Shown here: positions 4,363 through 31,742 of the stretch, piece after piece
Numbering within the stretch: position 1 is the stretch's first letter
Layout: every line of letters begins with the position of its first letter
Source: Nitrospira sp. UW-LDO-01
GTDB taxonomy: Bacteria; Nitrospirota; Nitrospiria; Nitrospirales; Nitrospiraceae
Direction of reading: 5' to 3'
Assembly: GCA_002254365.1 (NCBI GenBank)
Contig: NIUT01000174.1
Coordinates: forward strand, 11,058-47,118
DNA: 36,061 nt
Made by a program: the position numbers and the translations under genes
Notes under the pieces: generated by a model
What the model was told of the DNA's origin: nothing
Databases searched by the model: none
What the model saw: only the letters and a program-made list of their open reading frames with translations

Positions 4363-4803
4363 TCACAGTTGTCGTTTGCCACCAGTGGCCAGATAGGCTC
4401 GCAAAAGATCGCGTCGTGCGATGATCCCGATCAATTTCTCTTTGGCATTGACGACGGGAACGCGAATCAGATCGCTCGCGCGCAGCACGTGCACCAAGGT
4501 TCCGAGCGTCGTTTCCGGCCGGACTGAGTAAGGGTTGGCCGTCATGATGTCTTTTGCTGAGACGGTACCGAGCGGATGCCCGTCATCGACGGCTCCCAGT
4601 AGATCATGTTCGCTGACGATGCCTGTTAGCTTCCGGCCGTTTCCCACGACCGGCACGGCCCCGAACCCCTCGATCATCAACGATGCGATCACGTCCCCTT
4701 TCGTCTTCAAGCGGACATATTGCACTTCTTTCTCCATCACCTGACTCACGGTCATTGAGTCGAAGTCTTTGACTTTCACCTTAGCCTTCTTCTTCTTTTT
4801 CAT
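4363..4803 (-). CDS. Tandem CBS-domain protein with lysine-rich N-terminus
   Basis: This 146-residue protein begins with a striking basic run (MKKKKKAKVKVK). Two CBS domains follow: TVSQVMEKEVQYVRLKTKGD... and SAKDIMTANPYSVRPETTLG.... The adenosyl-ligand role is known for the family; any nucleic-acid or acidic-surface contact by the lysine tail is inference. The GAGGAGGGG ribosome-binding site just upstream supports the start. It is the first gene of a two-gene operon with the CBS paralog at 3921-4355, separated by 7 bases. It is divergent from the universal stress gene at 5070. Confidence 0.92.
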   Translation of the reverse strand: MKKKKKAKVKVKDFDSMTVSQVMEKEVQYVRLKTKGDVIASLMIEGFGAVPVVGNGRKLTGIVSEHDLLGAVDDGHPLGTVSAKDIMTANPYSVRPETTLGTLVHVLRASDLIRVPVVNAKEKLIGIIARRDLLRAYLATGGKRQL

Positions 4804-5069: not shown

Positions 5070-5975
5070 ATGCGGATCTTATGCGCGGTTGATGGATCGG
5101 AACATTCCCAATGGGGGGTCCAGGCGCTTGAAGCTCTTGCCAGTCAAGAACCTGAACAGGTGGTGCTCCTGCACATCGTCGACCAACCGGCGCTGCAGGC
5201 CGCCACGAATAAGAACCCCGTTGCAGCGAAACGTGCCCTTGCTGCAATGGAGAAGGCCGGTACCATCCTGTTGCGCGATGCCACACGAGCGGCTCGACTT
5301 GCCCTTGGCCAGGCGACAACCGGGCCACGGACAAAGCTCCAGACCATCCTCACGCATGGTCCGATTGCCCATACCATCGCGAGAACGGCCCGGCGGCTGA
5401 AGGCTGACCTCATCCTCATGGGATCACGCGGCTTGAGCGACATCCAAGGATTCTTGTTAGGGAGCGTCTCTCGCCAGGTGGCTGCGACGGCTCCCTGTCC
5501 CCTGTTGGCCGTGAAACAGCCACTGAAGAACCTGCTCCGCGTCGCCTTTGCTGTGGACGACTCCAGACCATCACGCGCTGCCGCCCGGTTTCTTCGATCC
5601 CGTATCCTTCCGGAATCCGCCACTGTCACGATCCTGACCTCGGTGGAAAGTCCCGTTACTGACTTCGCGGCACGCTATCTCTCTGAATCGCAACTGGCCG
5701 AATTAAAACAGCCCGTCATCGAACGGGCCACCAGGTTGGTCAATACCCTACGGGATGAGTTCATCAAAGACGGATTCTCGGCTGTCACTCAGATCCACAT
5801 GGACCACGTGATCGACACCATCGTGAAACATGTCGAAGCTAGCCATGACCAGCTACTGGTGATCGGCTCGCGTGATTTGACGAAGAGCGAGCGACTCTAT
5901 CTCGGCAGTGTGTCCGAAAGCCTGCTGAGGCATGCCCCCTGTTCGGTACTGATCGTACGAGGCGCCCGTGCCTGA
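5070..5975 (+). CDS. Tandem universal stress protein (two UspA domains)
   Basis: The 301-residue cytoplasmic protein has two Usp domains (about 1-148 and 155-300). The first begins MRILCAVDGSEHS and ends with the full ATP-binding signature G-2x-G-9x-GS, as GSRGLSDIQGFLLGSVS. The second has GSRDLTKSERLYLGSVS, where the second glycine is replaced by Asp, so it may be degenerate for nucleotide binding. Usp proteins act in energy stress and redox adaptation. It is the first gene of a plus-strand operon and overlaps the P-type ATPase by 8 bases. GGGG shortly before the ATG serves as ribosome-binding site. A Usp beside CBS proteins and a cation pump resembles known dormancy/stress modules. Confidence 0.93.
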   Translation: MRILCAVDGSEHSQWGVQALEALASQEPEQVVLLHIVDQPALQAATNKNPVAAKRALAAMEKAGTILLRDATRAARLALGQATTGPRTKLQTILTHGPIAHTIARTARRLKADLILMGSRGLSDIQGFLLGSVSRQVAATAPCPLLAVKQPLKNLLRVAFAVDDSRPSRAAARFLRSRILPESATVTILTSVESPVTDFAARYLSESQLAELKQPVIERATRLVNTLRDEFIKDGFSAVTQIHMDHVIDTIVKHVEASHDQLLVIGSRDLTKSERLYLGSVSESLLRHAPCSVLIVRGARA

Positions 5976-8775
5976 TCTCGACGGGCCGCACCTCCACCGG
6001 CTGGCAATGAGTGAACTCTTCACGCATCTGGGAACCAGAGAAGGCGGCTTGTCGACTGAAGAGGCGCAACAGCGGCTCAGTGAGTATGGCCCCAATGTTC
6101 TCAAGGAACCTGGGCACTATTCATTGATTCGAAGGTTCCTCCACCAGTTCACCCACTTCCTGGCCATTTTGCTCTGGATCGCTGCTGCCCTCGCGTTCAC
6201 GGCAGAATTCATGAAGCCCGGCGAAGGGATGGCCACGCTCGGTTGGGCAATCCTCGGCGTGATCGTCATCAACGCCATCTTTGCCTTCTTTCAGCAATAC
6301 AAGGCGGAACGCGCGGTGCATGCCCTCCATCGCCTCCTCCCTGCCAGAGCGTGGGTGCTACGAAGCAACCAACCTACTGACGTGTCGCGGAGCGAAATTG
6401 TGCCGGGTGACATGCTCCTGATTGAGGAAGGAGAACAGATTCCTGCCGACGCCAGGCTCGTCGAAGCGACCGACATGCGGGTCGACCTGTCCTCTCTCAC
6501 AGGCGAATCCCGACCGAAGCGGCGAACAGCGGAGCCGGTGGCTGATGGACATCTCCTGGACATTCCCAATCTCGTCTTCGCCGGCACCCCCGTGCTCTCC
6601 GGCAGAGGTCGTGCAGTGGTGTTCGCCACGGGCATGCAGACGGAATTCGGCAAGATCGCCCGCCTCTCCACTGGAGTGGAGACAGGCCTTAGCCCTCTTC
6701 AGAAAGAAATTGTGAAGGTCACCCACGTGGTCGCGCTACTGTCGCTCGCGATGGGTGGAACCTTTTTCGCCATCGGCATCTCCATGGGCTTGGGTTTCTG
6801 GATCAGCGCGATCTTTGGAATCGGCATCATCGTGGCAAACGTGCCGGAAGGACTGCTGCCCACGGTGACGCTGGCCTTGGCCCTGGGCAGCCAGCGCATG
6901 GCCAAACGCCACGCGCTCATTAAGCAGCTGACATCCGTGGAAACCTTGGGCTGCACCACCGTGATTTGCACGGATAAGACGGGGACACTGACCGAGAACC
7001 GGATGCGCGTGGCTCGTTTCTACATGGACCATCTCGAAATCGAGGTGCAGGAAAGCTGTTTGGTGATCGCCGGACGCGTGACCAGCGCAATCGAGGCCCA
7101 GGAGTATGCGCCGCTTTTCGACGCGATCATCCATTGCCACAATGCCAAGCGCATGCGAAAAACCGGCGGCCGTCCCATCGTGACAGGAGATCCCACCGAA
7201 GTAGCCCTAGTCGAATTCGCACTGGGGCACGGACTTCTCCACCATGACCCGTTGCCCCGGATGGGCGAGCTCCCGTTCGACGCGGACCGGAAACGCATGA
7301 CCACCCTCCATTGGCGTGAAGGCCAACTCGTGGCTTTCGTGAAGGGAGCGCCCGAATCGCTGATGCCCCTCTGCAATCAGATTCGCCACCAGGGTGTTCG
7401 CTCACCGATGAGTCAGGAAGATGGCCAGCGGATCATGGCACAAAGCCGTACCTTTGCGCAGCAAGCCTATCGCGTCCTGGCTGTGGCCATGCGTGACATT
7501 GAGCAAGGTGTCGAGAAGCTGGACATTGAGCAGGTGGAACAGAATCTGACCTTCCTCGGCTTGGTCGCCATGATGGACCCGCCGCGCCACGAAGTGCCAG
7601 AAGCCATCGCTCGCTGCCGCCAAGCCGGCATCCGCGCCATCATGATCACCGGCGACCATCCCCTCACGGCTCTGGCCATCGCCCGCCAGATCGGGCTGGC
7701 GCCGAAAGAGACTCCCGCCGAGCCGGACGGATACTGTCCCGTCATCGAAGGGCACCAGGTCGAAACGATGAGCGACGACGCGCTACGCCGGCTCCTCACA
7801 CCCACCAATCCCGGCGAGCCCGAACCGGTCTTTGCGCGTATGGCACCTCGGCACAAGATGCGGATCGTATCCACACTCAAAGGGATGGGCGAGGTGGTCG
7901 CAGTCACCGGTGACGGTGTCAACGACGCCCCGGCCATCAAGAAAGCCGATATTGGTATTGCGATGGGTATCGCCGGAAGCGACGTGGCGAAAGAAACGGC
8001 TGACATGATTTTGCTCGACGACAACTTTGCCACCATCGTCAACGCCATTGAAGAAGGTCGTGCCGTCTACGCCAACATCCGAAAATTTTCCACGTACGTG
8101 CTGGCAAGCAATGTGCCTGAAATCGTACCTTATCTGGCATTTGGCTTGTTCGGGATTCCACTCGCCCTCACGGTCCCGCAAATCCTGGCAGTGGATCTAG
8201 GGACCGACATGGTTCCAGCCTTGGCGCTGGGTGCCGAAAGTCCAGACGCCGACATGATGGCAAGACCGCCGCGCCCGCGCACGGAACGGTTGATGAATCT
8301 TCCGCTCCTCCTGCGCGCCTATGTCTTTTTGGGCATGATTGAAGCAGGGGTTGCCATGGGTTCATTCTTTTTATTGCTCCTGACACAGGGGTGGACCTGG
8401 GGCATGCCGCTCGAGTGGTCCGACCCGCTCTACAAGCAGGCGACCACCGCCACCTTCGCCGCTATCGTCGTCGCCCAGGTGGCAAACGTGTTTGCCTGCC
8501 GCTCCGATCATCTCTCGGCAACCCGACTCGGCTGGTTCAGCAACCCACTCATCCTATGGGGCATCGTCATGGAACTGACCATCCTTGCGCTCATTACCTA
8601 TACACCGATTGGAAACGAGATCTTCGGAACCAGTCCCTTGCCTCTCTGGTTCTTCGGACCTTTGGTACTCGGAGCTCTGACACTCTTGCTGGCTGAAGAA
8701 GGCCGGAAGTTCCTCATAAACCGGCATCATCGCAGTCCAAATTCCAGAGCGACTCAGATCGTGAGCCCATCATGA
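5968..8775 (+). CDS. P-type ATPase, type II with Na,K-ATPase-like (IIC) ion-site residues
   Basis: This 935-residue membrane cation pump starts at a GTG overlapping the usp stop. It has an N-terminal cation-ATPase domain, TGES (178-181), the phosphorylated Asp in DKTGT (D336), and TGDGVND (647-653). The transport helices resemble animal Na,K-ATPase rather than SERCA. M4 is ANVPEGLLPTVT (E294), M5 is ASNVPEIVP (S714, N715, E718), and M6 is AVDLGTDMVPALAL (D743, D747). The Ser before Asn in M5 is the Na,K-type residue; gastric H,K pumps have Lys there. No beta-subunit is encoded nearby. The transported ion (Na+, K+ or H+) is inferred from these residues only. The stop overlaps the adaptor's start by 4 bases. 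Confidence 0.93.
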   Translation: MPDLDGPHLHRLAMSELFTHLGTREGGLSTEEAQQRLSEYGPNVLKEPGHYSLIRRFLHQFTHFLAILLWIAAALAFTAEFMKPGEGMATLGWAILGVIVINAIFAFFQQYKAERAVHALHRLLPARAWVLRSNQPTDVSRSEIVPGDMLLIEEGEQIPADARLVEATDMRVDLSSLTGESRPKRRTAEPVADGHLLDIPNLVFAGTPVLSGRGRAVVFATGMQTEFGKIARLSTGVETGLSPLQKEIVKVTHVVALLSLAMGGTFFAIGISMGLGFWISAIFGIGIIVANVPEGLLPTVTLALALGSQRMAKRHALIKQLTSVETLGCTTVICTDKTGTLTENRMRVARFYMDHLEIEVQESCLVIAGRVTSAIEAQEYAPLFDAIIHCHNAKRMRKTGGRPIVTGDPTEVALVEFALGHGLLHHDPLPRMGELPFDADRKRMTTLHWREGQLVAFVKGAPESLMPLCNQIRHQGVRSPMSQEDGQRIMAQSRTFAQQAYRVLAVAMRDIEQGVEKLDIEQVEQNLTFLGLVAMMDPPRHEVPEAIARCRQAGIRAIMITGDHPLTALAIARQIGLAPKETPAEPDGYCPVIEGHQVETMSDDALRRLLTPTNPGEPEPVFARMAPRHKMRIVSTLKGMGEVVAVTGDGVNDAPAIKKADIGIAMGIAGSDVAKETADMILLDDNFATIVNAIEEGRAVYANIRKFSTYVLASNVPEIVPYLAFGLFGIPLALTVPQILAVDLGTDMVPALALGAESPDADMMARPPRPRTERLMNLPLLLRAYVFLGMIEAGVAMGSFFLLLLTQGWTWGMPLEWSDPLYKQATTATFAAIVVAQVANVFACRSDHLSATRLGWFSNPLILWGIVMELTILALITYTPIGNEIFGTSPLPLWFFGPLVLGALTLLLAEEGRKFLINRHHRSPNSRATQIVSPS

Positions 8776-10103
8776 CCACTGATCCACAAAAACCCACTCG
8801 CCATGTGCCTGTTGATGAAATCATTTCTCATCACGAGGCCTCGACACCAGAGTGGCAACATTCCGACCCGTCCGTTGCTCTGAAATCGATGGCTACAATT
8901 GTCCCGCTTCCCGGCCAACCAAGTCGCTCCCGTCTCCCCTGGCTGATCAGCATCGTGATAGTCATAGCCGTTGGCGGAGGGGGCATGTGGTACTGGTGGA
9001 CCTCCGGCGCCCCTCCTATTCACTACAAGACAGCCCTGGTTGATCGTGGACCGATCACAGCGATCGTGACCGCAACCGGCACGATCAATCCGGTCGTCTC
9101 GGTGCAAGTCGGTAGCCAGGTCTCCGGGAAAGTTGCCCAACTGTTTGCCGATTTCAACTCCAAGGTGGCAAGGGGACAGATCTTGGCACAGATCGATCAA
9201 AAGCCGTTCAAGGCCCGTTTAAGTCAAGCTCGTGCCGCCGTCAAGAGCGCCAGAGGCAACCTTGCCAGGGCCAAAGTATTGGCGATACAACGCAAGCGTG
9301 AGTTTGATCGTATGGCAGCACTGCGGCCACAGGCATTCGTCTCGCAGGCAGACGTAGACCTTGCCGAGACCAACTACAGGGATGCCTCAGCCAACGTGGA
9401 GGTTCTGCAGGCGCAACTGGATCAGGCACAGGCCGTGCTCGCTTCTGCGGAATTGGATCTTGGTTATACCACGATCTACTCACCGGTAGACGGCATCGTG
9501 GTATCCAGAAACGTGGATGTCGGGCAAACCTTGGCCGCGACCTTCCAGACACCGACTTTGTTCGTGATCGCCCAGGACTTGACCCAGATGCAGGTCAATG
9601 CCAACGTCAGCGAATCTGACGTCGGCGGTGTCAAGGAGGGAACAGAAGCGAATTTCCGCGTAGACGCCTATTCCAAACAGTTCTTCGACGGCGTGGTGAC
9701 GCAGGTGCGCAACGCACCGATCAATATTCAGAACGTCGTCACCTATGATGTGGTCATCACCGTCCGCAATCCCGAGTTGAAGTTGAAGCCAGGCATGACA
9801 GCAAACGTCACCATCGTGACCGCACGGAAAGAAAATCCGCTCCGTGTCCCAAACAGCGCTCTACGCTTCAGAATGCCCAACATGCCCACCGACAGGAAAG
9901 CTACGCGTGTCTGGGTGTTGGATCCCAATCACCAACCTCGCCAAGTGGAGGCCTCGACCGGCATCGCCGACTCTCTCTATACGGAAGTCGTGTCTGACAC
10001 CTTGCACGAGGGCGATCCCGTCATCGTCGGCATCGAGACCGAAGAAGAACAGCTTCAAAGGAAATTACCGCCCGGCTTCGAACCGGGCCGAAGTCTAAGA
10101 TGA
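8772..10103 (+). CDS. MacA/HlyD-family periplasmic adaptor subunit
   Basis: The 443-residue protein has a cytoplasmic N-terminal ~75 residues, one membrane anchor (LPWLISIVIVIAVGGGGMWYW), and then the membrane-fusion-protein core. The core has a barrel-sandwich hybrid half (VQVGSQVSGKVAQL), a long alpha-helical hairpin rich in Ala/Gln (about residues 150-235), a second lipoyl half (TTIYSPVDGIVVSRNVDVGQ) and beta-barrel domains. Adaptors of this type join an inner-membrane ABC transporter to TolC. The long N-terminal extension is unusual for MacA. Its ATG overlaps the pump's stop as ATGA, so the two are translationally coupled. Its permease partner is at 10204, but no ATP-binding gene lies between them. 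Confidence 0.9.
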   Translation: MTTDPQKPTRHVPVDEIISHHEASTPEWQHSDPSVALKSMATIVPLPGQPSRSRLPWLISIVIVIAVGGGGMWYWWTSGAPPIHYKTALVDRGPITAIVTATGTINPVVSVQVGSQVSGKVAQLFADFNSKVARGQILAQIDQKPFKARLSQARAAVKSARGNLARAKVLAIQRKREFDRMAALRPQAFVSQADVDLAETNYRDASANVEVLQAQLDQAQAVLASAELDLGYTTIYSPVDGIVVSRNVDVGQTLAATFQTPTLFVIAQDLTQMQVNANVSESDVGGVKEGTEANFRVDAYSKQFFDGVVTQVRNAPINIQNVVTYDVVITVRNPELKLKPGMTANVTIVTARKENPLRVPNSALRFRMPNMPTDRKATRVWVLDPNHQPRQVEASTGIADSLYTEVVSDTLHEGDPVIVGIETEEEQLQRKLPPGFEPGRSLR

Positions 10104-10115
10104 CGGAAAACAAGA

Positions 10116-10200
10116 AGCTATCGGCTGTCAGTATTCAGTTGTCGGCCTCGGATTGGATTCAGATTACTGAAGACTGAAAGCTGACCGCTACTAGCTAATC
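10116..10200. repeat. Inverted array of 7-base repeats between adaptor and permease
   Basis: The left arm reads as successive heptamers AGCTATC, GGCTGTC, AGTATTC, AGTTGTC. The right arm reads ACTGAAG, ACTGAAA, GCTGACC, GCTACTA, GCTAATC. The right-arm units are approximate reverse complements of the left, so the region can fold into an imperfect hairpin. It fills almost all of the 100-base gap. It resembles the short tandem heptameric repeats known from other bacteria, but its role here is unknown. A related heptamer run is inside the pump gene at 25748-25782. Confidence 0.6.
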
Positions 10201-10203
10201 ACC

Positions 10204-11436
10204 ATGTCCTTCTTTTGGCTGACCCTTCTATCGGCTTTCCGTATTCTCAAACGCAACCCGTTGAGGGCCGGCTTGACGATGCTGGGCATCATCATAGGCA
10301 TCAGCGCAGTCGTTGCCATGATCAGCCTTGGCCAGGGCGCCACCGCCTCCGTGCAGGCTGAAATTTCGAGCCTGGGCACCAATGTGCTGATTGTCATCCC
10401 AGGAGCCACGACGGTCGGAGGCGTCCGGGGTGGACTCGGCACGATTTCCACCCTAACGGTGGACGATGCGGAAGACATTGAAAAAAAGATCGCCGGCGTG
10501 ACGACGGCGATGTACGGGACACGCTCGATCCTCCAAGTGATCAGGGAGAACAAGAACTGGAGTACGGTCGTCTTTGGAACCACTCCCGTCTTCCCGGATA
10601 TCCGCAATTGGCCCATTGCAGAGGGAAACTTTTTCACACAATCAGACCTCGATTCTGCCGCCAAGGTCGCGGTCTTGGGAAAAACCGTCGCTCAGAATCT
10701 ATTTGAGCCGGGAGAAGAAGTCGTAGGAAGTGAGATCCGTATCAGGAATGTTCCGCTCCGGATCATTGGGATCCTGACATCAAAGGGCCAATCCATTACA
10801 GGGCAGGATCAAGATGATTTCGTTGTCCTTCCCTTCTCAACCGCAGAACGCAAGGTGTTTGGAACAAAATTTCTGGGAACGGTCGGCATTATTCTCGTGT
10901 CAACGGCAACCCACGACGACATTCCCGCTGCAGCGGACGATATCAAGGAGCTGTTACGGGCAAGACATCGCCTGCACACATCGGAAGAAGACGACTTCAC
11001 GATCCGGACCATGGAGGACATCGCGAGAACCATCGCCGGCACGAGCAGAACGATGATGGTGATGCTGATGAGCATTGCATCGATCTCTCTGATTGTGGGC
11101 GGAATCGGCATCATGAATATCCTCTTGGTTTCCGTCACGGAACGGACGCGGGAGATCGGCTTGCGGATGGCGGTGGGCGCAAAGCGCGCACACATCCTGC
11201 TGCAATTCCTCATGGAAGCCCTCATCATGACCGCGATCGGAGGAATACTTGGGGTTGGGACAGGAATCGGCATCGCCCGGCTGCTCACGACCATGATCGG
11301 GTGGCCGACCATCATTAATACCCAAGCGGTGCTTGCCGCGTTTCTGTTCTCGCTCGTCGTCGGATTGTTTTTCGGCCTCTACCCGGCGAATAAAGCGTCC
11401 AAGCTGAACCCAATTGAAGCGCTGCGCTATGAATAG
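10204..11436 (+). CDS. MacB/FtsX-type ABC transporter permease
   Basis: The 410-residue membrane protein has the MacB_PCD/FtsX layout. It has one N-terminal membrane helix (PLRAGLTMLGIIIGISAVVAMISLG), a large periplasmic domain (about 45-280), and then three C-terminal helices starting near MMVMLMSIASISLIVGGIGIMNILLVSV and ending ...SKLNPIEALRYE. Such permeases drive a MacA-type adaptor by mechanotransmission and need a separate ATPase domain when, as here, the N-terminal nucleotide-binding domain of MacB is absent. No ATPase gene is adjacent. The gene overlaps the start of the MgtA-like pump by 8 bases, placing all five genes in one operon. The substrate is unknown. Confidence 0.92.
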   Translation: MSFFWLTLLSAFRILKRNPLRAGLTMLGIIIGISAVVAMISLGQGATASVQAEISSLGTNVLIVIPGATTVGGVRGGLGTISTLTVDDAEDIEKKIAGVTTAMYGTRSILQVIRENKNWSTVVFGTTPVFPDIRNWPIAEGNFFTQSDLDSAAKVAVLGKTVAQNLFEPGEEVVGSEIRIRNVPLRIIGILTSKGQSITGQDQDDFVVLPFSTAERKVFGTKFLGTVGIILVSTATHDDIPAAADDIKELLRARHRLHTSEEDDFTIRTMEDIARTIAGTSRTMMVMLMSIASISLIVGGIGIMNILLVSVTERTREIGLRMAVGAKRAHILLQFLMEALIMTAIGGILGVGTGIGIARLLTTMIGWPTIINTQAVLAAFLFSLVVGLFFGLYPANKASKLNPIEALRYE

Positions 11437-13984
11437 TCGAGAGACAATTTTCTGGAGTCTACCGGCGGATGAACTTCTCACCCTCCTTCGATCAAGACCT
11501 GAGGGCCTTCGTCCCGACGAAACCCAAGAGCGTCAAGCCCAATACGCCTCCGCTCGGCTCAAACCACACCGAAACAGACGCGCCCTGTTCGCTTTGCTCT
11601 CGCAATTTCGTAGTCCGATTATCTTGATCCTACTGTGTGCGGCAATTATGTCTTTGTTCCTCGCGGATCGAACCGATGCGCTCATCATCCTGGCCATCAT
11701 TCTCATCAGCGCGTTGCTAGGGTTTTGGCAGGAGCACGGTGCTGCAAAGGCGGTTGCCGCATTGCTCTCACTCGTTCGAGTGAAGACCGCGGTCTGGCGA
11801 GATGGGCGACTCATCGAAGTACCGAGTGAAGAGATTGTCCCTGGCGATGTCATCAATCTCTCAGCCGGGTCCAGTATTCCCGGCGATGGGCTCGTGATTG
11901 AATCAAAAGACCTATTCGTCGATGAAGCCTTGTTGACCGGCGAAACCTATCCTGCCGAGAAGTCTGTCGCGATCGTTTCTACCGCAGCCGTATTGAGCCA
12001 ACGAACAAACACGATTTTCATGGGCACGCACGTGGTCAGCGGACATGCCAAGGCTGTGATCGTGCACGTCGGGAAGGAAACAGAGTTTGGCCGCATCGCT
12101 TCTCACGTGATGCTTCGACCTGCGGAGACAGAATTTGAACGTGGTATCAGGCGGTTCGGATATTTATTGCTTGAAGTGACGCTTCTCCTCGTATTCGCCA
12201 TCTTCGCCATCAACGTCTATCTCCATCGGCCGGTACTCGATTCGTTTCTGTTTTCCATGGCTCTCGCCGTCGGTCTCACCCCCCAACTCCTCCCGGCCAT
12301 TATCAGCGTGAATCTGGCTCATGGCGCAAAACGCATGGCCCAACAGAACGTGATCGTCAAACGCCTCGCTTCCATTGAAAATTTCGGAAGTATGAACGTC
12401 CTCTGCTCGGACAAGACCGGCACGCTCACCGAGGGCACCATGCGCTTTCATGCAGCCCTGAGCCTCGACGGCGCTGCCAGTGAGCGCGTGCTGTTTCATG
12501 GAGCCCTCAATGCCACCTACGAAACCGGCTTCATCAACCCCCTTGATGAAGCGATCCGGACGCAGTGCGTCCGCGACCTGTCGGGATACCGGAAGCTGGA
12601 CGAAGTTCCCTATGACTTTCTCCGGAAGCGCCTTTCGATTCTTGTGGCCGCCCCCACCACGCACCTGCTGATTACCAAAGGGGCCGTGGAGCCCATGCTG
12701 GCCATATGCACTCGCGCGGAACTGCCGGATGGATCGACGGTCCCCATGGAATTTTGCCTCGCGAAAATCCGTCAGCAATTTCAGGATATGAACCGCCAAG
12801 GTCTCCGCACGTTGGGTTTAGCGATTCGTGATATGGGCGAGACCCCTCACATTGACAAGGAGCAGGAAGTCGAGATGACGTTTCTTGGTCTCTTGGTCTT
12901 TGTCGATCCGGTGAAACCCGACATGGCTCAGACCATCGCAGCCTTACGGCAACTGGGCGTGTCGCTCAAGATTATCACCGGCGATCACCATCTCGTGGCC
13001 ACCCATGTCAGCGAACAGGTGGGCATGGACCACCAGCGCCTCTTGACCGGGTCGGAGCTTCGCCTGATGACCGATGAAGCGCTGAGTCAGCGGGTGAAGA
13101 ACATTGATGTGTTTGCGGAAGTGGAACCGAATCAGAAGGATCGCATCATTCTCGCCTTGAAGCAATCCGGCAACGTGGTCGGCTATATCGGCGACGGGAT
13201 CAACGATGCCCCCGCGCTCCATTCGGCAGACGTGGGCATCTCCGTGGAAAGCGCTGTGGATGTGGCAAAAGACGCGGCAGACATTGTGCTCCTCGACAAG
13301 AATCTTTCGGTTCTGATCCAAGGCGTCCGTGAAGGGCGCACAACGTTTTCGAACACGTTGAAATACGTCTTCATGGCGACCAGCGCCAACTTCGGCAATA
13401 TGTTCAGCATGGCCGGCGCCTCGCTGTTTCTGTCGTTTCTCCCGTTGCTGCCGAAGCAAATTCTTCTCGCGAACCTGCTCACCGATATTCCGGAGATGAC
13501 GATCGCGACCGATACGGTTGACCCTGAACTGATCGCCGAACCACAGCGCTGGGATATCGTCTTCATCCGCAGGTTCATGTTGACATTCGGACTCGTCAGT
13601 TCGGTATTTGACTACCTGACCTTCGGCGCACTCTTATGGATTCTTGACGCCTCACCGGAGGAGTTTCGGACAGGCTGGTTCATCGAATCCATCATTTCCG
13701 CTTCGGCTATTGTGCTGGTTATTCGCACCAGACGTCCATTCTTCTCCAGTACACCAGGACGCACCCTCACACTCGCCACCCTCGCCGTGGCTGCCGTCAC
13801 GTTACTGCTCCCCCTGCTCCCGATTGCCGCACCGCTCGGGCTGACGCCGATGCCGCTGTCATTTCTCGTACTGTTAGGAACAATCCTGGCCGGCTACGTC
13901 GTAGCCGCCGAGCTTGCAAAGCGCCACTTCTACGCCGCGCATCAGATTCCATGCAAGGGAAGAAGCGGCATAGGCAAGGTCTGA
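11429..13984 (+). CDS. P-type ATPase, MgtA-like (type IIIB)
   Basis: The 851-residue pump has LLTGET (actuator TGE motif), DKTGT (D328) and GDGINDAPAL. The M4 region AVGLTPQLLPAIISVNLAHG and the following VIVKRLASIENFGSMNVLCSDKTGTL match magnesium-importing MgtA/MgtB proteins (which have PEMLP) far better than Ca2+ pumps. The E to Q change in PQLLP and the M6 region (LLTDIPEMTIATD) differ from enterobacterial MgtA, so the ion is uncertain. I chose ATG 11429, which overlaps the permease stop; a TTG at 11414 would add five residues. It is last in the operon and converges on the glucosidase gene, with only 7 bases between the stops. Confidence 0.88.
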   Translation: MNSRETIFWSLPADELLTLLRSRPEGLRPDETQERQAQYASARLKPHRNRRALFALLSQFRSPIILILLCAAIMSLFLADRTDALIILAIILISALLGFWQEHGAAKAVAALLSLVRVKTAVWRDGRLIEVPSEEIVPGDVINLSAGSSIPGDGLVIESKDLFVDEALLTGETYPAEKSVAIVSTAAVLSQRTNTIFMGTHVVSGHAKAVIVHVGKETEFGRIASHVMLRPAETEFERGIRRFGYLLLEVTLLLVFAIFAINVYLHRPVLDSFLFSMALAVGLTPQLLPAIISVNLAHGAKRMAQQNVIVKRLASIENFGSMNVLCSDKTGTLTEGTMRFHAALSLDGAASERVLFHGALNATYETGFINPLDEAIRTQCVRDLSGYRKLDEVPYDFLRKRLSILVAAPTTHLLITKGAVEPMLAICTRAELPDGSTVPMEFCLAKIRQQFQDMNRQGLRTLGLAIRDMGETPHIDKEQEVEMTFLGLLVFVDPVKPDMAQTIAALRQLGVSLKIITGDHHLVATHVSEQVGMDHQRLLTGSELRLMTDEALSQRVKNIDVFAEVEPNQKDRIILALKQSGNVVGYIGDGINDAPALHSADVGISVESAVDVAKDAADIVLLDKNLSVLIQGVREGRTTFSNTLKYVFMATSANFGNMFSMAGASLFLSFLPLLPKQILLANLLTDIPEMTIATDTVDPELIAEPQRWDIVFIRRFMLTFGLVSSVFDYLTFGALLWILDASPEEFRTGWFIESIISASAIVLVIRTRRPFFSSTPGRTLTLATLAVAAVTLLLPLLPIAAPLGLTPMPLSFLVLLGTILAGYVVAAELAKRHFYAAHQIPCKGRSGIGKV

Positions 13985-24157: not shown

Positions 24158-26983
24158 TTACGCCCTGACGACGGATGACCCTAATGCCATTTGCCGTCGA
24201 ACCCACTTGACCCCTTCAACGATAGCCAGTGGGAGCAGTGCCATGGCCACCATCAGTTCCCAATCTTCTATCGGTAAGGACGCGACCTTAAAGATAGGCT
24301 CCACGAACGGAATGGTGAGAATGCCGACTTGTAGAGCCAGAGAAGCCACCACCGCCCAGATGAGGGCACGGTTGGTCGTCACCCCCACGTGAAATAACGA
24401 CCAGCGATCGCTCCGGCAATTAAAGGCGTGGGCCAACTGAGCGGCAACCATCACGGTAAACGTCACCGTTCGAGCCTGGTCAATCGACTGCTGCCAGACA
24501 AACAGACTATACGAAAAGGCGCCCAGGGCAATGACCGCCAACATCAGACCTTCGCCGACGATGGTCCACAGCCTGCCGCCATCCAGTAAACGCGCCTGAG
24601 CCTGTCGCGGGGGCCGCTGCATCAGGTCCGGCGCTTTCGGATCGACCGCCAGGGCGAGAGCTGGGAAACCGTCCGTCACGAGGTTCATCCACAGAATGTG
24701 AATCGGCAGGAGCGGGAGCGGCAGGCCGAACAGGGTCGCAAACAGCATGACGAGCACCTCGCTCATATTGCACGACAAAAGAAAATGTACCGTCTTCCTG
24801 ATGTTGTCGAAGATACCCCGCCCCTCCTCGACCGCGGCGGCGATCGAGGCAAAATTGTCGTCCGTCACGACCATGTCCGAGGCTTCCTTGGTCACATCGG
24901 TTCCGGCAAGACCCATCGCCACACCGATATCCGAGGCCTTAATCGCCGGCGCGTCATTGACTCCATCACCGGTCATAGCGACAATCGCCCCGTTTCGCTT
25001 CCAGGCCTGCACAACCCGGAGCTTATGCTCGGCAGACACCCGGGCGTACACCGTCACACGCTCGATCTGCTGCATCAATTGCTCGTCGGTGAGACCATCA
25101 AGCTCAGCACCCGACAAGGCCATGTCGTCATTACGTTGCAATCCCAGCTCGCGAGCGATCGCGACCGCGGTCTCCTTGTGATCACCGGTGATCATGGCGG
25201 TTCTGATGCCGGCTTGCCGGCAGAGACGCACTGCCTCTGTTGCTTCAGACCGCAATGGATCTTTCATTGCGAGGAGCCCGAGAAAAATCAGGTCGCACTC
25301 GACTTCTTCATCAGCATTTACCTGGCGGCCCAGAGGTCTATAGGCGACGCCCAGGACCCGGAGGGCTTGCTGCGCCAACGACGCATTGGCGTCGTTAATC
25401 TGTCGCCGACGTTCTGCATCAAGCACCTCGATCCGTCCTTCTGGCGTGATATGTGTGGCACAGCGCTTTAGTAAGACATCGGGCGCTCCTTTGCTGTACA
25501 CCTTGCAGCCTTGCTCCGTTCGACGGACAATCGTCATCATCTTCCGCTCGGCATCGAACGGAATTTCTCTCTCCCGTGGCGCTTGGCCCTCCAATTCAGC
25601 CTTGGTGAGACCGACCTTCGCGGCCGCCACGAGCAACGCCCCCTCGGTCGGGTCGCCGATGATCCGCCAGATCCCCTTCTCTTGTTGCAATGTCGCGCCG
25701 TTACACAACACCGCAGCGGTCAGAAGATCGCGCAGACCAGGGGGAAGTGCTGATTGCTGGGTGCTGGGTGATGGGTGCTCCGGAGATGGGTGTCCTGATC
25801 GATCCGATGACTGAGTGTTCAGCACTCGTGCCTCGGAACTGTGTTCTTTGATTTCACCCACCGGCTCATACCCCTCGCCGGTTACCTCGAAGGTTTCGCT
25901 GCCGATCACTAACTTCGTCACCGTCATTTCATTTTTCGTCAATGTACCGGTCTTGTCGGTGCAGATCACGGTGGCGGAACCGAGTGTCTCGACGGCGGGA
26001 AGTTTACGAATCAGCGCATGCCGCTTCGCCATCCGCGTGACACCCAACGCCAAAGTGATGGTAACGATAGCGGGAAGGCCCTCGGGCACAGCTGCCACCG
26101 CCAGGCTGACGGAGACGAGAAACATCTCCACCAACGGTTCTCCCCGGAGAGAGCCGAGCACGAATACGATCGCGACCACACCGAGCGCGAGCCACAGGAG
26201 TGTCGAGCCGAATTGTTCCAACCGCCGCTGCAACGGAGTTTCGGTACGCTCTGCCTCAGCGGCCTTCTGAATCATGGCAGCAATCCGACCAAGCTCCGTA
26301 CCCAAACCGGTCGCCACCACCAGCCCATGGGCCTTACCGGAGACAACCACTGTACCCATGAAGACCATATTGCGTTGATCAGCCAACGGAACTTCGGCTG
26401 CCTCAAGCCGCTCTGCCTGTTTCTGCACCGGCGTCGATTCGCCGGTGAGTGAGGCTTCTTGGGCTTGGAAATTCGTCGTGTAAACCAAACGTGCATCGGC
26501 TGGAATCCGGTCCCCGGCTTCGAGAGCAACCACGTCTCCCCTGACCAATTCTCGAGCCGGGATGGACTGCAGTACGCCCTCGCGGATGACCCGGGCCATA
26601 GACACCGACATCTTGCGCAGTGCTGCCATCGATCGCTCGGCTCGGAATTCCTGCACAAACCCCAGCACTCCATTGAAAAACACGATGGCGAGAATCGCCG
26701 CTGCATCGACCCAGTCTTCTAGTAACCCAGAGACAATGGCCGCCCCGATCAGCACCCATACGATGAGGCTTGTGAATTGGGAGAGAAAAAGCTTCAGAAA
26801 GGAGGGAGGTGGAGCTTCGGGTAACTCGTTGGGGCCGTCTTGCGCCAACCGGCGTGCCGCATCATCGATCGGCAGGCCGCAATTGAAGTCTGTCTGGAGT
26901 TCCTCAGCCAGCGCTTCTGCCGACCGGACATACCAGGCTCTCGCGTTCATTCTCCCATTCATTACCTGCGATGTCTTATCCAT
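24158..26983 (-). CDS. P-type ATPase, Ca2+ type (IIA, PacL/SERCA-like)
   Basis: The 941-residue calcium-type pump has TGES, DKTGT (D343) and [12 protein letters not shown]. The SERCA calcium residues are visible: M4 [11 protein letters not shown] (Glu), M5 [11 protein letters not shown] (Asn and Glu), and M6 [14 protein letters not shown] (Asn, Thr, Asp). Ca2+ (or Mn2+) export from the cytoplasm is therefore the best call. The nucleotide domain carries an extra low-complexity segment (about residues 380-420: ...[16 protein letters not shown]...) encoded by 7-base repeats. GAGGGGG before the ATG supports the start, although ATGs at codons 8 and 12 are possible. It lies downstream of the CaCA exchanger on the same strand, with a 311-base gap between them. 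Confidence 0.94.
25748..25782. repeat. Five tandem 7-base repeats inside the Ca2+-pump gene
   Basis: On the plus strand the units are TGCTGAT, TGCTGGG, TGCTGGG, TGATGGG and TGCTCCG. They encode residues 401-412 of the pump in a surface insertion of the nucleotide-binding domain. The style matches the heptamers at 10116-10200. The insertion has kept the reading frame open. Confidence 0.6.
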
Positions 26984-27294: not shown

Positions 27295-28317
27295 TCACCC
27301 GTTGAAGAGCAGCCAGAGGCCCAGGATATAGACGATGATCATCAACAAGCTATCCGGCTCGATCAGCATGAATCTACGTTCGGCCCGGTAGATGATTCCC
27401 ATCAATCCAATGTTCATCATGACGATCGACCACAGGGCTGTGAGTGCATGAGCGGAGCTGACGGCACTCAAGAGTCCTCCCTGCTGATAGGCGAGATCAG
27501 CAAAGAAAAACGCCGCCATATTGAAGGCGTTGCTCCCGAAGAGATTACCGACGGCCAGATCGAAAGCACCCAATCGTATAGCCGAAATCGAGACGACCAG
27601 TTCCGGCAATGAGGTCGTAATCGCCACCAGTGAGGTCCCGATAAAGGTCGCCGTGATGCCGCTTTCTTCTGCGATCCGCCCAGCAGACCAGGCTAAGATG
27701 GGGGCGGCGATCAACAGTGCCAGGGTACCGATGGAGAACCCCCACAGGGCCCGGTGAAGCTCGTTGCGGTGACTTCCCTCCATGCTCGGCTGCTCAGGAT
27801 CTGTAATAGACTTGACAACGACTTGATGTTCAAGCTGACGATGGGTCATATCCTCTTGGCGAAAGACCAATCTCATGCCAAGAACATAGAGGGTGAGAAG
27901 CACCAAACTCTCAATGCCCACGCCGAGACGAACAACATCGATTCGTAACAGCACACAAAACGCCGCGAGACCCGTCAACACCATGGCGAGTGCCGCCGTC
28001 AGCGTATGTCCAAAAGCCGCCTGTTGCCACACGCGCTTGTGACGATAGAGAAGATCGATAAGCCCCAGTGTCAACATGTTGCTCATGCCGGCGCCAAAAA
28101 GGTTGCCGGCTGCAAGATCTGGGGCGTCCATCCACCCTGCGCTCATGGTCGTGAATACTTCCGGCAAAGACGTCGCACCCGCCATCAGGACCGCGCCGAC
28201 CCACACCCGACCCAAACCGGTCAATTCGGCAATCCGATCTCCATGGTGGGAGAGTCTGGTTCCTACGAGAACGATTACTGCTGCGGTGACAGCAAAGACT
28301 AATCCCGGAATGATCAT
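27295..28317 (-). CDS. CaCA-family Na+/Ca2+ (cation/calcium) exchanger
   Basis: The 340-residue membrane protein has two halves, each with the alpha-repeat that defines this family. Alpha-1 is MAGATSLPEVFTT followed by DLAAGNLFGAGMSNML. Alpha-2 is AITTSLPELVVSISAIRLGAFDLAVGNLFGSNAFN. About ten membrane helices are visible, with a cytoplasmic loop near 150-190 (HRQLEHQVVVKSITDPEQPS). Such proteins (YrbG, NCX_Mj relatives) exchange Na+ or H+ for Ca2+. Alpha-1 has GAGMSN where alpha-2 has GSNAFN, so the first ion site is slightly atypical. GGAG 8 bases before the ATG supports the start. The Ca2+ pump lies downstream on the same strand, which fits a shared calcium role. Confidence 0.92.
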   Translation of the reverse strand: MIIPGLVFAVTAAVIVLVGTRLSHHGDRIAELTGLGRVWVGAVLMAGATSLPEVFTTMSAGWMDAPDLAAGNLFGAGMSNMLTLGLIDLLYRHKRVWQQAAFGHTLTAALAMVLTGLAAFCVLLRIDVVRLGVGIESLVLLTLYVLGMRLVFRQEDMTHRQLEHQVVVKSITDPEQPSMEGSHRNELHRALWGFSIGTLALLIAAPILAWSAGRIAEESGITATFIGTSLVAITTSLPELVVSISAIRLGAFDLAVGNLFGSNAFNMAAFFFADLAYQQGGLLSAVSSAHALTALWSIVMMNIGLMGIIYRAERRFMLIEPDSLLMIIVYILGLWLLFNG

Positions 28318-30440: not shown

Positions 30441-31742
30441 GTGACTATGCAAAGAACCGGAGCAGCGGCCCTGCCCTATGAAATCTTCGTCGGCCTTCGC
30501 TACTTGCGCGCCAAGCGACGCAATCGGACGATTTCGCTGAACACGTTCGTGTCGGTGGCCGGCATCACGCTGGGAGTAGCGGCACTAATCGGTGCGGTCG
30601 GTATCATGACCGGCTTTCGGGAGGACTTGCAGAGTAAGCTGATCGGCACCACCGCCCATATCATCGTCCAAGGGCGGATGAAAGAACACATGACTGACTA
30701 TGCCCGTCTCACCGAGAGGATCCTGACGGTACCGGACGTTGTCGCAGCCACACCATTCGTCTTCCACCAAGTGTTACTCACCACGCAAAGCGGAGTTCAA
30801 GGCATCATTGTGCGTGGAATCGATCCGAAACGAGAAGCCACTGTCACTGAACTGGCCAAGAACATCACGGCGGGGCAATTGCTCAACCTCCTCACTCCAA
30901 TCAAAGTGACGCAGGCTCCGACCGGTGCCCCTCACGGCGAACGACGCACCGCTGAAACACCAGGCATTATTCTGGGCAACGAGCTGGCGCGCAAACTGAA
31001 CGTGGGCGTGGGCGATACGGTCAACGTCGTCTCTCCCGCCGGGCCGATCAGCGCGATGGGCATGGTACCCAAAATCCGAACATTCGCCGTGGTGGGCCTC
31101 TTCTCTTCGGGAATGTTCAGCTACGATTCTTCGCTGGCCTATATCGAGCTCGGCGAGGCTCAGAGATTTTTCAACTTGGGCGCGAGCGTCACCGGGATCG
31201 AAGTCAAGGTGACGGATGTCTTCCGTGCCGGCGACATCGCCCACCAGATCGAACAGGCGCTTGGATTCAGCCACGGGGCCAGAGACTGGATGCAGATGAA
31301 CCGTAACACCATCTCGGCCTTGAAGCTGCAGAAGACGATGATGTTTCTGCTCCTCGTCCTCATCACGGTTGTCGCCTCGTTCAACATCGTGAGCACCTTG
31401 ACGATGCTCGTGAAGGAGAAACAAAAAGAAATCGCCATTCTCAAAGCGATGGGCGCAACCGAGCGCAGCATCCGGCGGATTTTCATGCTGAATGGGCTGA
31501 TCATCGGCCTTGTGGGGACAGCCGTCGGCATTCCGTTGGGCTATGCCTTTCTGTGGCTGATTCAAACCTATTGGACCTTCGATCCGACCGTCTATGAAAT
31601 CTCGACCATTCCAGTTCACGTGCTGACGGAAGATGTGCTCCTGGTAGCCGGCTCCGCCATCCTGATCAGCTTTTTAGCGACGATCTATCCGGCCAATCAA
31701 GCCGCGAAACTCGAACCGGTCGCCGCATTACGGTATGACTAG
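30441..31742 (+). CDS. LolC/LolE-type lipoprotein-releasing ABC permease
   Basis: The 433-residue protein has the LolCE layout. The N-terminal helix follows the RAKRRNRTISLNTFVSVAGITLGVAALIGAVGIMTGF motif. A large periplasmic domain lies at about 65-300 and three C-terminal helices start at MMFLLLVLITVVASFNIVS; the protein ends NQAAKLEPVAALRYD. LolCE with the LolD ATPase moves lipoproteins from the inner membrane to LolA. Whether this is LolC or LolE cannot be said. The start is GTG 30441; ATG 30447 is equally possible. No LolD-like ATPase follows: the next sequence is a broken acetyltransferase on the other strand, and the lolC/E 3' end forms the junction. Confidence 0.9.
   Translation: MTMQRTGAAALPYEIFVGLRYLRAKRRNRTISLNTFVSVAGITLGVAALIGAVGIMTGFREDLQSKLIGTTAHIIVQGRMKEHMTDYARLTERILTVPDVVAATPFVFHQVLLTTQSGVQGIIVRGIDPKREATVTELAKNITAGQLLNLLTPIKVTQAPTGAPHGERRTAETPGIILGNELARKLNVGVGDTVNVVSPAGPISAMGMVPKIRTFAVVGLFSSGMFSYDSSLAYIELGEAQRFFNLGASVTGIEVKVTDVFRAGDIAHQIEQALGFSHGARDWMQMNRNTISALKLQKTMMFLLLVLITVVASFNIVSTLTMLVKEKQKEIAILKAMGATERSIRRIFMLNGLIIGLVGTAVGIPLGYAFLWLIQTYWTFDPTVYEISTIPVHVLTEDVLLVAGSAILISFLATIYPANQAAKLEPVAALRYD

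Follow-up and report, generated by a model that had tools for sequence, protein, structure and literature searches.

A beta-free prokaryotic relative of the animal Na,K-ATPase in Nitrospira with a putatively remodelled third sodium site

The P-type ATPase from Nitrospira sp. UW-LDO-01 described here belongs with the alpha subunits of animal Na,K-ATPases and not with the Ca2+ pumps. As judged from its sequence, it probably is a beta-free IIC pump that exports Na+ and imports K+ and in which the third sodium site has been remodelled. Prokaryotic P2C (IIC) pumps as a kind are already known from methanogens and bacteria (PMC10654040, PMC9609216), and their function has been named an open question (PMC10654040). 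While the family is thus familiar, an exchange of charge between transmembrane segments M7 and M8 seems to be new: it was not found in the searchable literature, though an earlier mention in work on sodium-pump evolution is possible.

Results

The pump gene and its surroundings

The window, that is the whole stretch of DNA analysed (36,061 nucleotides), contains the pump gene in an operon-like setting:

4363..4803, minus strand: tandem CBS-domain protein, a divergent neighbour that goes with Usp and pump in many relatives
5070..5975, plus strand: two-domain universal stress protein (Usp), whose gene adjoins that of the pump in the majority of the family members sampled
5968..8775, plus strand: single-subunit IIC (P2C)-type P-type ATPase of 935 amino acids (ORF call, profile and PDB matches, trees)
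8772..10103, plus strand: MacA/HlyD-type adaptor, beside the pump in some relatives only
10204..11436, plus strand: MacB/FtsX-type permease lacking an ABC ATPase domain, likewise in some relatives only

The pump reading frame is real, starts with GTG and carries the TGES, DKTGT, MITGD and GDGVND motifs; several genomes of the same genus encode full-length counterparts with about 90% identity. Its start shares eight bases with the end of the Usp gene, the stress protein that the original prediction had placed next to the pump, and its stop shares four bases with the start of the adaptor gene. Adjacency of Usp and pump is kept in the host family, usually together with the divergent CBS protein, and the MacA/FtsX neighbours are patchy. 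Because only some relatives have the adaptor beside the pump, it is probably a passenger. At 8772-11436 and 30441-31742 the window has, besides the one MacA-like adaptor, two permeases of the MacB/FtsX type that lie apart from each other; both permeases are devoid of an ABC ATPase domain, and no recognised ABC ATPase gene lies beside them or the adaptor. Three classes of P-type ATPases are encoded within 21 kb, namely the IIC pump, a IIIB/MgtA-like pump (11414-13984) and a true IIA pump (24158-26983), the latter two serving as internal contrasts; a gene of the Na+/Ca2+ exchanger family (27295-28317) adjoins the IIA pump.

The pump groups with animal alpha subunits

The likeness to the animal enzyme is not accidental: among PDB entries, the whole pump is best matched by the animal Na,K-ATPase (567 bits), with LMCA1 at 464 and SERCA2 at 446. 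The best NCBIfam model is that for IIC (TIGR01106, ATPase-IIC_X-K), at 629 bits and hence below the curated cut-off of 946. Other prokaryotic IIC proteins likewise miss this cut-off (610-831 bits); the model appears to be tuned to animal-type proteins, and the failure appears to concern the NCBI label rather than the clade.

Trees were of the 'quick' type without bootstrap and contained SERCA1, LMCA1, PMCA1 (a partial sequence) and four animal alphas as references, all with sequences taken from the PDB matches. Prokaryotic IIC proteins and animal alphas formed one clade with an SH-aLRT of 100, and an AU test rejected a clade of the pump with IIA (p about 4e-39), which bears out the proposal of a candidate bacterial IIC pump. 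In a tree restricted to the A, N and P domains, the clade of IIC and animal alphas, now including the boundary row L075, received 99 and the inner clade joining the pump's branch with animals 95. It had been considered that the pump might fall inside IIA, with its M6 residues explained by convergence; since the cytoplasmic domains alone place it with the animal alphas and away from IIA, the motif is not due to convergence. Inside IIC, animals group with methanogens and marine proteobacteria. The pump lies outside this smaller clade, in its sister group, which comprises Nitrospirota and betaproteobacteria; actinobacteria branch close to this group or, depending on the tree, outside it.

Genome searches recovered the pump from roughly half of the nearest genomes sampled and from across the phylum, with an identity gap between its relatives (at least 42%) and IIA pumps (at most 39%). 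A scan of named genomes yielded at least 579 relatives, the best 80 of which come from Methanosarcinaceae, Nano- and Woesearchaeota, Alpha-, Beta- and Gammaproteobacteria, Actinomycetota and others. A viral or mobile origin was dismissed, as a scan of viral contigs gave no relative. One group of P2 pumps, mostly from Nanoarchaeota (L227-L246, L075), shows some IIC features (S775, N776 and E779) but Ser or Thr at position 954 and often N804. Two members were placed in trees, where L228 and L075 together form the sister branch of IIC; the group may show intermediate states.

Ion sites I and II are of the animal type

The segments that form the ion sites, together with the phosphorylation motif, are the following (Na,K-ATPase numbering for the animal positions):

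6832..6858, plus strand: M4 ion-site stretch VANVPEGLL, residues 289-297, identical to animal Na,K-ATPase 322-330
6973..6987, plus strand: phosphorylation motif DKTGT, residues 336-340
8095..8121, plus strand: M5 YVLASNVPE, residues 710-718, with S775, N776, P778 and E779 kept, T772V and T774A
8194..8208, plus strand: M6 DLGTD, residues 743-747, with D804, G806, T807 and D808 kept
8341..8343, plus strand: M7 E792, at the position of pig Q854 near Na+ site III, Gln in animals and Glu in the pump
8476..8499, plus strand: M8 QVANVFAC, residues 837-844, with Q923 and C930 kept, W924V and D926N (N840)
8572..8574, plus strand: M9 E869, corresponding to E954, kept in prokaryotic IIC and absent from IIA rows

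M4 reads VANVPEGLLPTVT from residue 289, and M4, M5 and M6 align in register with the shark and human Na,K-ATPases. The pump equals both at 11 of 11 scored ligand positions in these segments, compared with seven to eight in most IIA-type rows, and the site I/II ligands E327, S775, N776, E779, D804 and D808 are all present. The animal Na+- and K+-binding residues originally recognised in M4, M5 and M6, the Na,K-type Ser included, are thus confirmed. LMCA1 and SERCA (P2A) have the same fold as the pump, and its Asn at position 926 recurs in SERCA1 and PMCA1, but LMCA1 and SERCA form a separate clade and lack DLGTD, E954 and P778. Descent of the pump from IIA Ca2+ pumps, with convergence on Na,K-type residues in M5-M6, is highly improbable and was rejected on the cytoplasmic-domain tree and the AU test: its raw identity to LMCA1 (35.2%) is indeed near that to the shark Na,K-ATPase (36.6%), but trees with and without the membrane segments contradict this idea, the pump is of the IIC type in M8, M9 and the cytoplasmic domains as well, and the true IIA pump of the same window has other ion-site residues.

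As had been proposed, the pump has no recognisable beta subunit: the best match to the Na,K-ATPase beta family (PF00287) in the genome reaches 9.7 bits, well short of the cut-off (23.3), the beta-docking motif SYG[QE] is absent from the pump, and its L7/8 loop comprises 23 residues versus 47 in animals. The MacA-like adaptor was considered as a beta-like partner and discarded, as many relatives have no such gene next to the pump and the adaptor shows no sign of this role.

Site III and the charge exchange between M7 and M8

In animals, site III involves Y771, T774, S775, D808, Q923 and D926 (PMC6746705, rat numbers +2), and a role of the M7 residue Gln854 has been described (PMC9463140). W924 and T774 are also important for this site. 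In human alpha3, the exchange D923N, at the same position as D926, lowers Na+ affinity more than 100-fold (PMC9463140). The pump keeps S775, Q923, C930 and E954 and has A713 for T774, V838 for W924 and N840 for D926. In place of the D926 and W924 that mark the Na+-specific animal site III, it offers a carboxylate on M7, E792; this departure from animals in M7 and M8 was no part of the original prediction. Because the likeness to the animal enzyme ends at site III (Q854E, D926N, W924V, T774A), the animal 3Na:2K behaviour should not be assumed.

This constellation is widespread. Across 157 IIC sequences, the charges on M7 and M8 are mutually exclusive: the 854/926 pair is E/N, as in the pump, in 106, Q/D in 36, Q/N in 14, G/N in one and E/D in none. 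The named loci were found by M5/M6 patterns and the IIC rows chosen on positions 804 and 954, so that the selection itself accounts for some of the conservation at these positions; it made no use of positions 854 and 926. On a tree built without columns 854 and 926, M7 changed about eight times and M8 about four times. A dependent model was favoured over an independent one (Pagel-type, likelihood ratio 17.2, reached in 0 of 110 simulations), a result from one tree with few M8 events; an independent-pairs test had too few pairs for significance. From the exclusive pairing and the correlated evolution, it seems that M7 and M8 exchange the charge of the third site.

All 30 sampled IIC loci from the methanogen phylum (L174-L203) combine Asn at 926 with Glu at 854 and so share this pair with the pump. 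The count is at odds with the statement that the methanogen versions conserve every residue of the Na+/K+ sites (PMC10654040). One of these pumps (L203) additionally has H775 and T776.

Discussion

Compared with the animal alpha subunit, the pump shares the P-type core and the residues S775, N776, E779, D804, D808, Q923, E954 and C930, but it has no beta subunit, a short L7/8 loop, no C-terminal YY, and the exchanges T772V, T774A, Q854E, W924V and D926N. The prokaryotic P2C pumps described previously (PMC10654040 section 7; PMC9609216 group I) fall into the same clade and also have no beta-assembly motif. Gastric and non-gastric H,K-ATPase alphas (P2C) have the IIC fold and sites in common with the pump; they differ from it by Lys at position 775, where the pump has Ser, and by keeping Asp at 926, neutralised by Arg949 (PMC9463140), where the pump has N840.

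In the cycle that we consider likely, ATP would phosphorylate D336, cytoplasmic Na+ would be bound and then expelled in E1/E1P, and external K+ would be bound at sites I and II and taken in during E2, as in the Post-Albers scheme. The third, Na+-only site would be remodelled, with its carboxylate on M7 (E792) instead of M8 (D926 in animals, N840 here). Stoichiometry may be 3Na:2K if site III is rebuilt in this way, or 2:2 if the pump has no third site.

The latter option leads to a serious rival, in which a pump of the same family has a dead site III and exchanges two Na+ (or two H+) for two K+ electroneutrally. We regard it as rather unlikely, but mutant data give it weight: the non-gastric H,K-ATPase in which only the NKA-type Ser was introduced (K794S) transports two Na+ or two H+ for two K+ and is electroneutral, and C930R abolishes site III with the same electroneutral outcome (PMC9463140). 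D926N, W924V and T774A in the pump point in this direction. D926N alone had been considered as proof of a dead site, an argument weakened by the Glu on M7, and the exclusive M7/M8 pairing together with the kept Q923, E954 and C930 suggests that a charged site III is maintained.

Less probable still is an IIC relative of loose selectivity that expels H+ or Na+, takes up K+ or NH4+ and serves mainly in pH control or potassium scavenging. Strict Na+ selectivity is reported to require Trp924 (PMC9463140), a residue that neither the pump nor any of the 103 prokaryotic IIC proteins in the alignment set possesses, and K+-regulator genes (TrkA, Kef-type antiporter) lie beside some relatives. Against such looseness, the H,K-type Lys at position 775 is missing from the pump, Ser occupying this position in 100 of the 103 proteins, and P778 and C930 are kept.

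For the Na+-exporting, K+-importing pump that we favour, the neighbours suggest a role. Across diverse loci, Usp accounts for 13 and TrkA_N for 7 of 134 immediate pump neighbours, links that are concentrated in a few lineages; among 134 distant genes of the same loci, both fall outside the 25 commonest families, single-member ones included. Because Usp and TrkA genes are enriched beside IIC pumps, an association, the pump probably functions in K+/Na+ and stress homeostasis, and the operon-like arrangement with Usp would fit an adjustment of cellular K+/Na+ under stress or energy limitation. Three genes for TrkA-type K+ regulators flank an Actinomycetota IIC pump (L124:2277-8183), and a Kef-type antiporter gene is directly followed by one Nitrospirota pump.

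For the family as a whole, we tentatively suggest, on comparative grounds and at somewhat less than even confidence, that most prokaryotic IIC pumps have a working Na+ site III with the carboxylate on M7 (E854) and not on M8 (D926). The animal form would have arisen from this one via the neutral pair Q854/N926, never via E/D, perhaps three times (in animals, in proteobacteria/nanoarchaea and in one further lineage). In that case, what is a dystonia-parkinsonism variant in human alpha3 (D923N) would be the normal residue state in prokaryotic IIC pumps, compensated by one change in M7. Such a natural charge swap at a Na+-specific site would allow the origins of both the 3:2 stoichiometry and the animal sodium pump to be tested by two point mutations, each in the opposite background, and prokaryotic IIC pumps would supply beta-free material for structural work.
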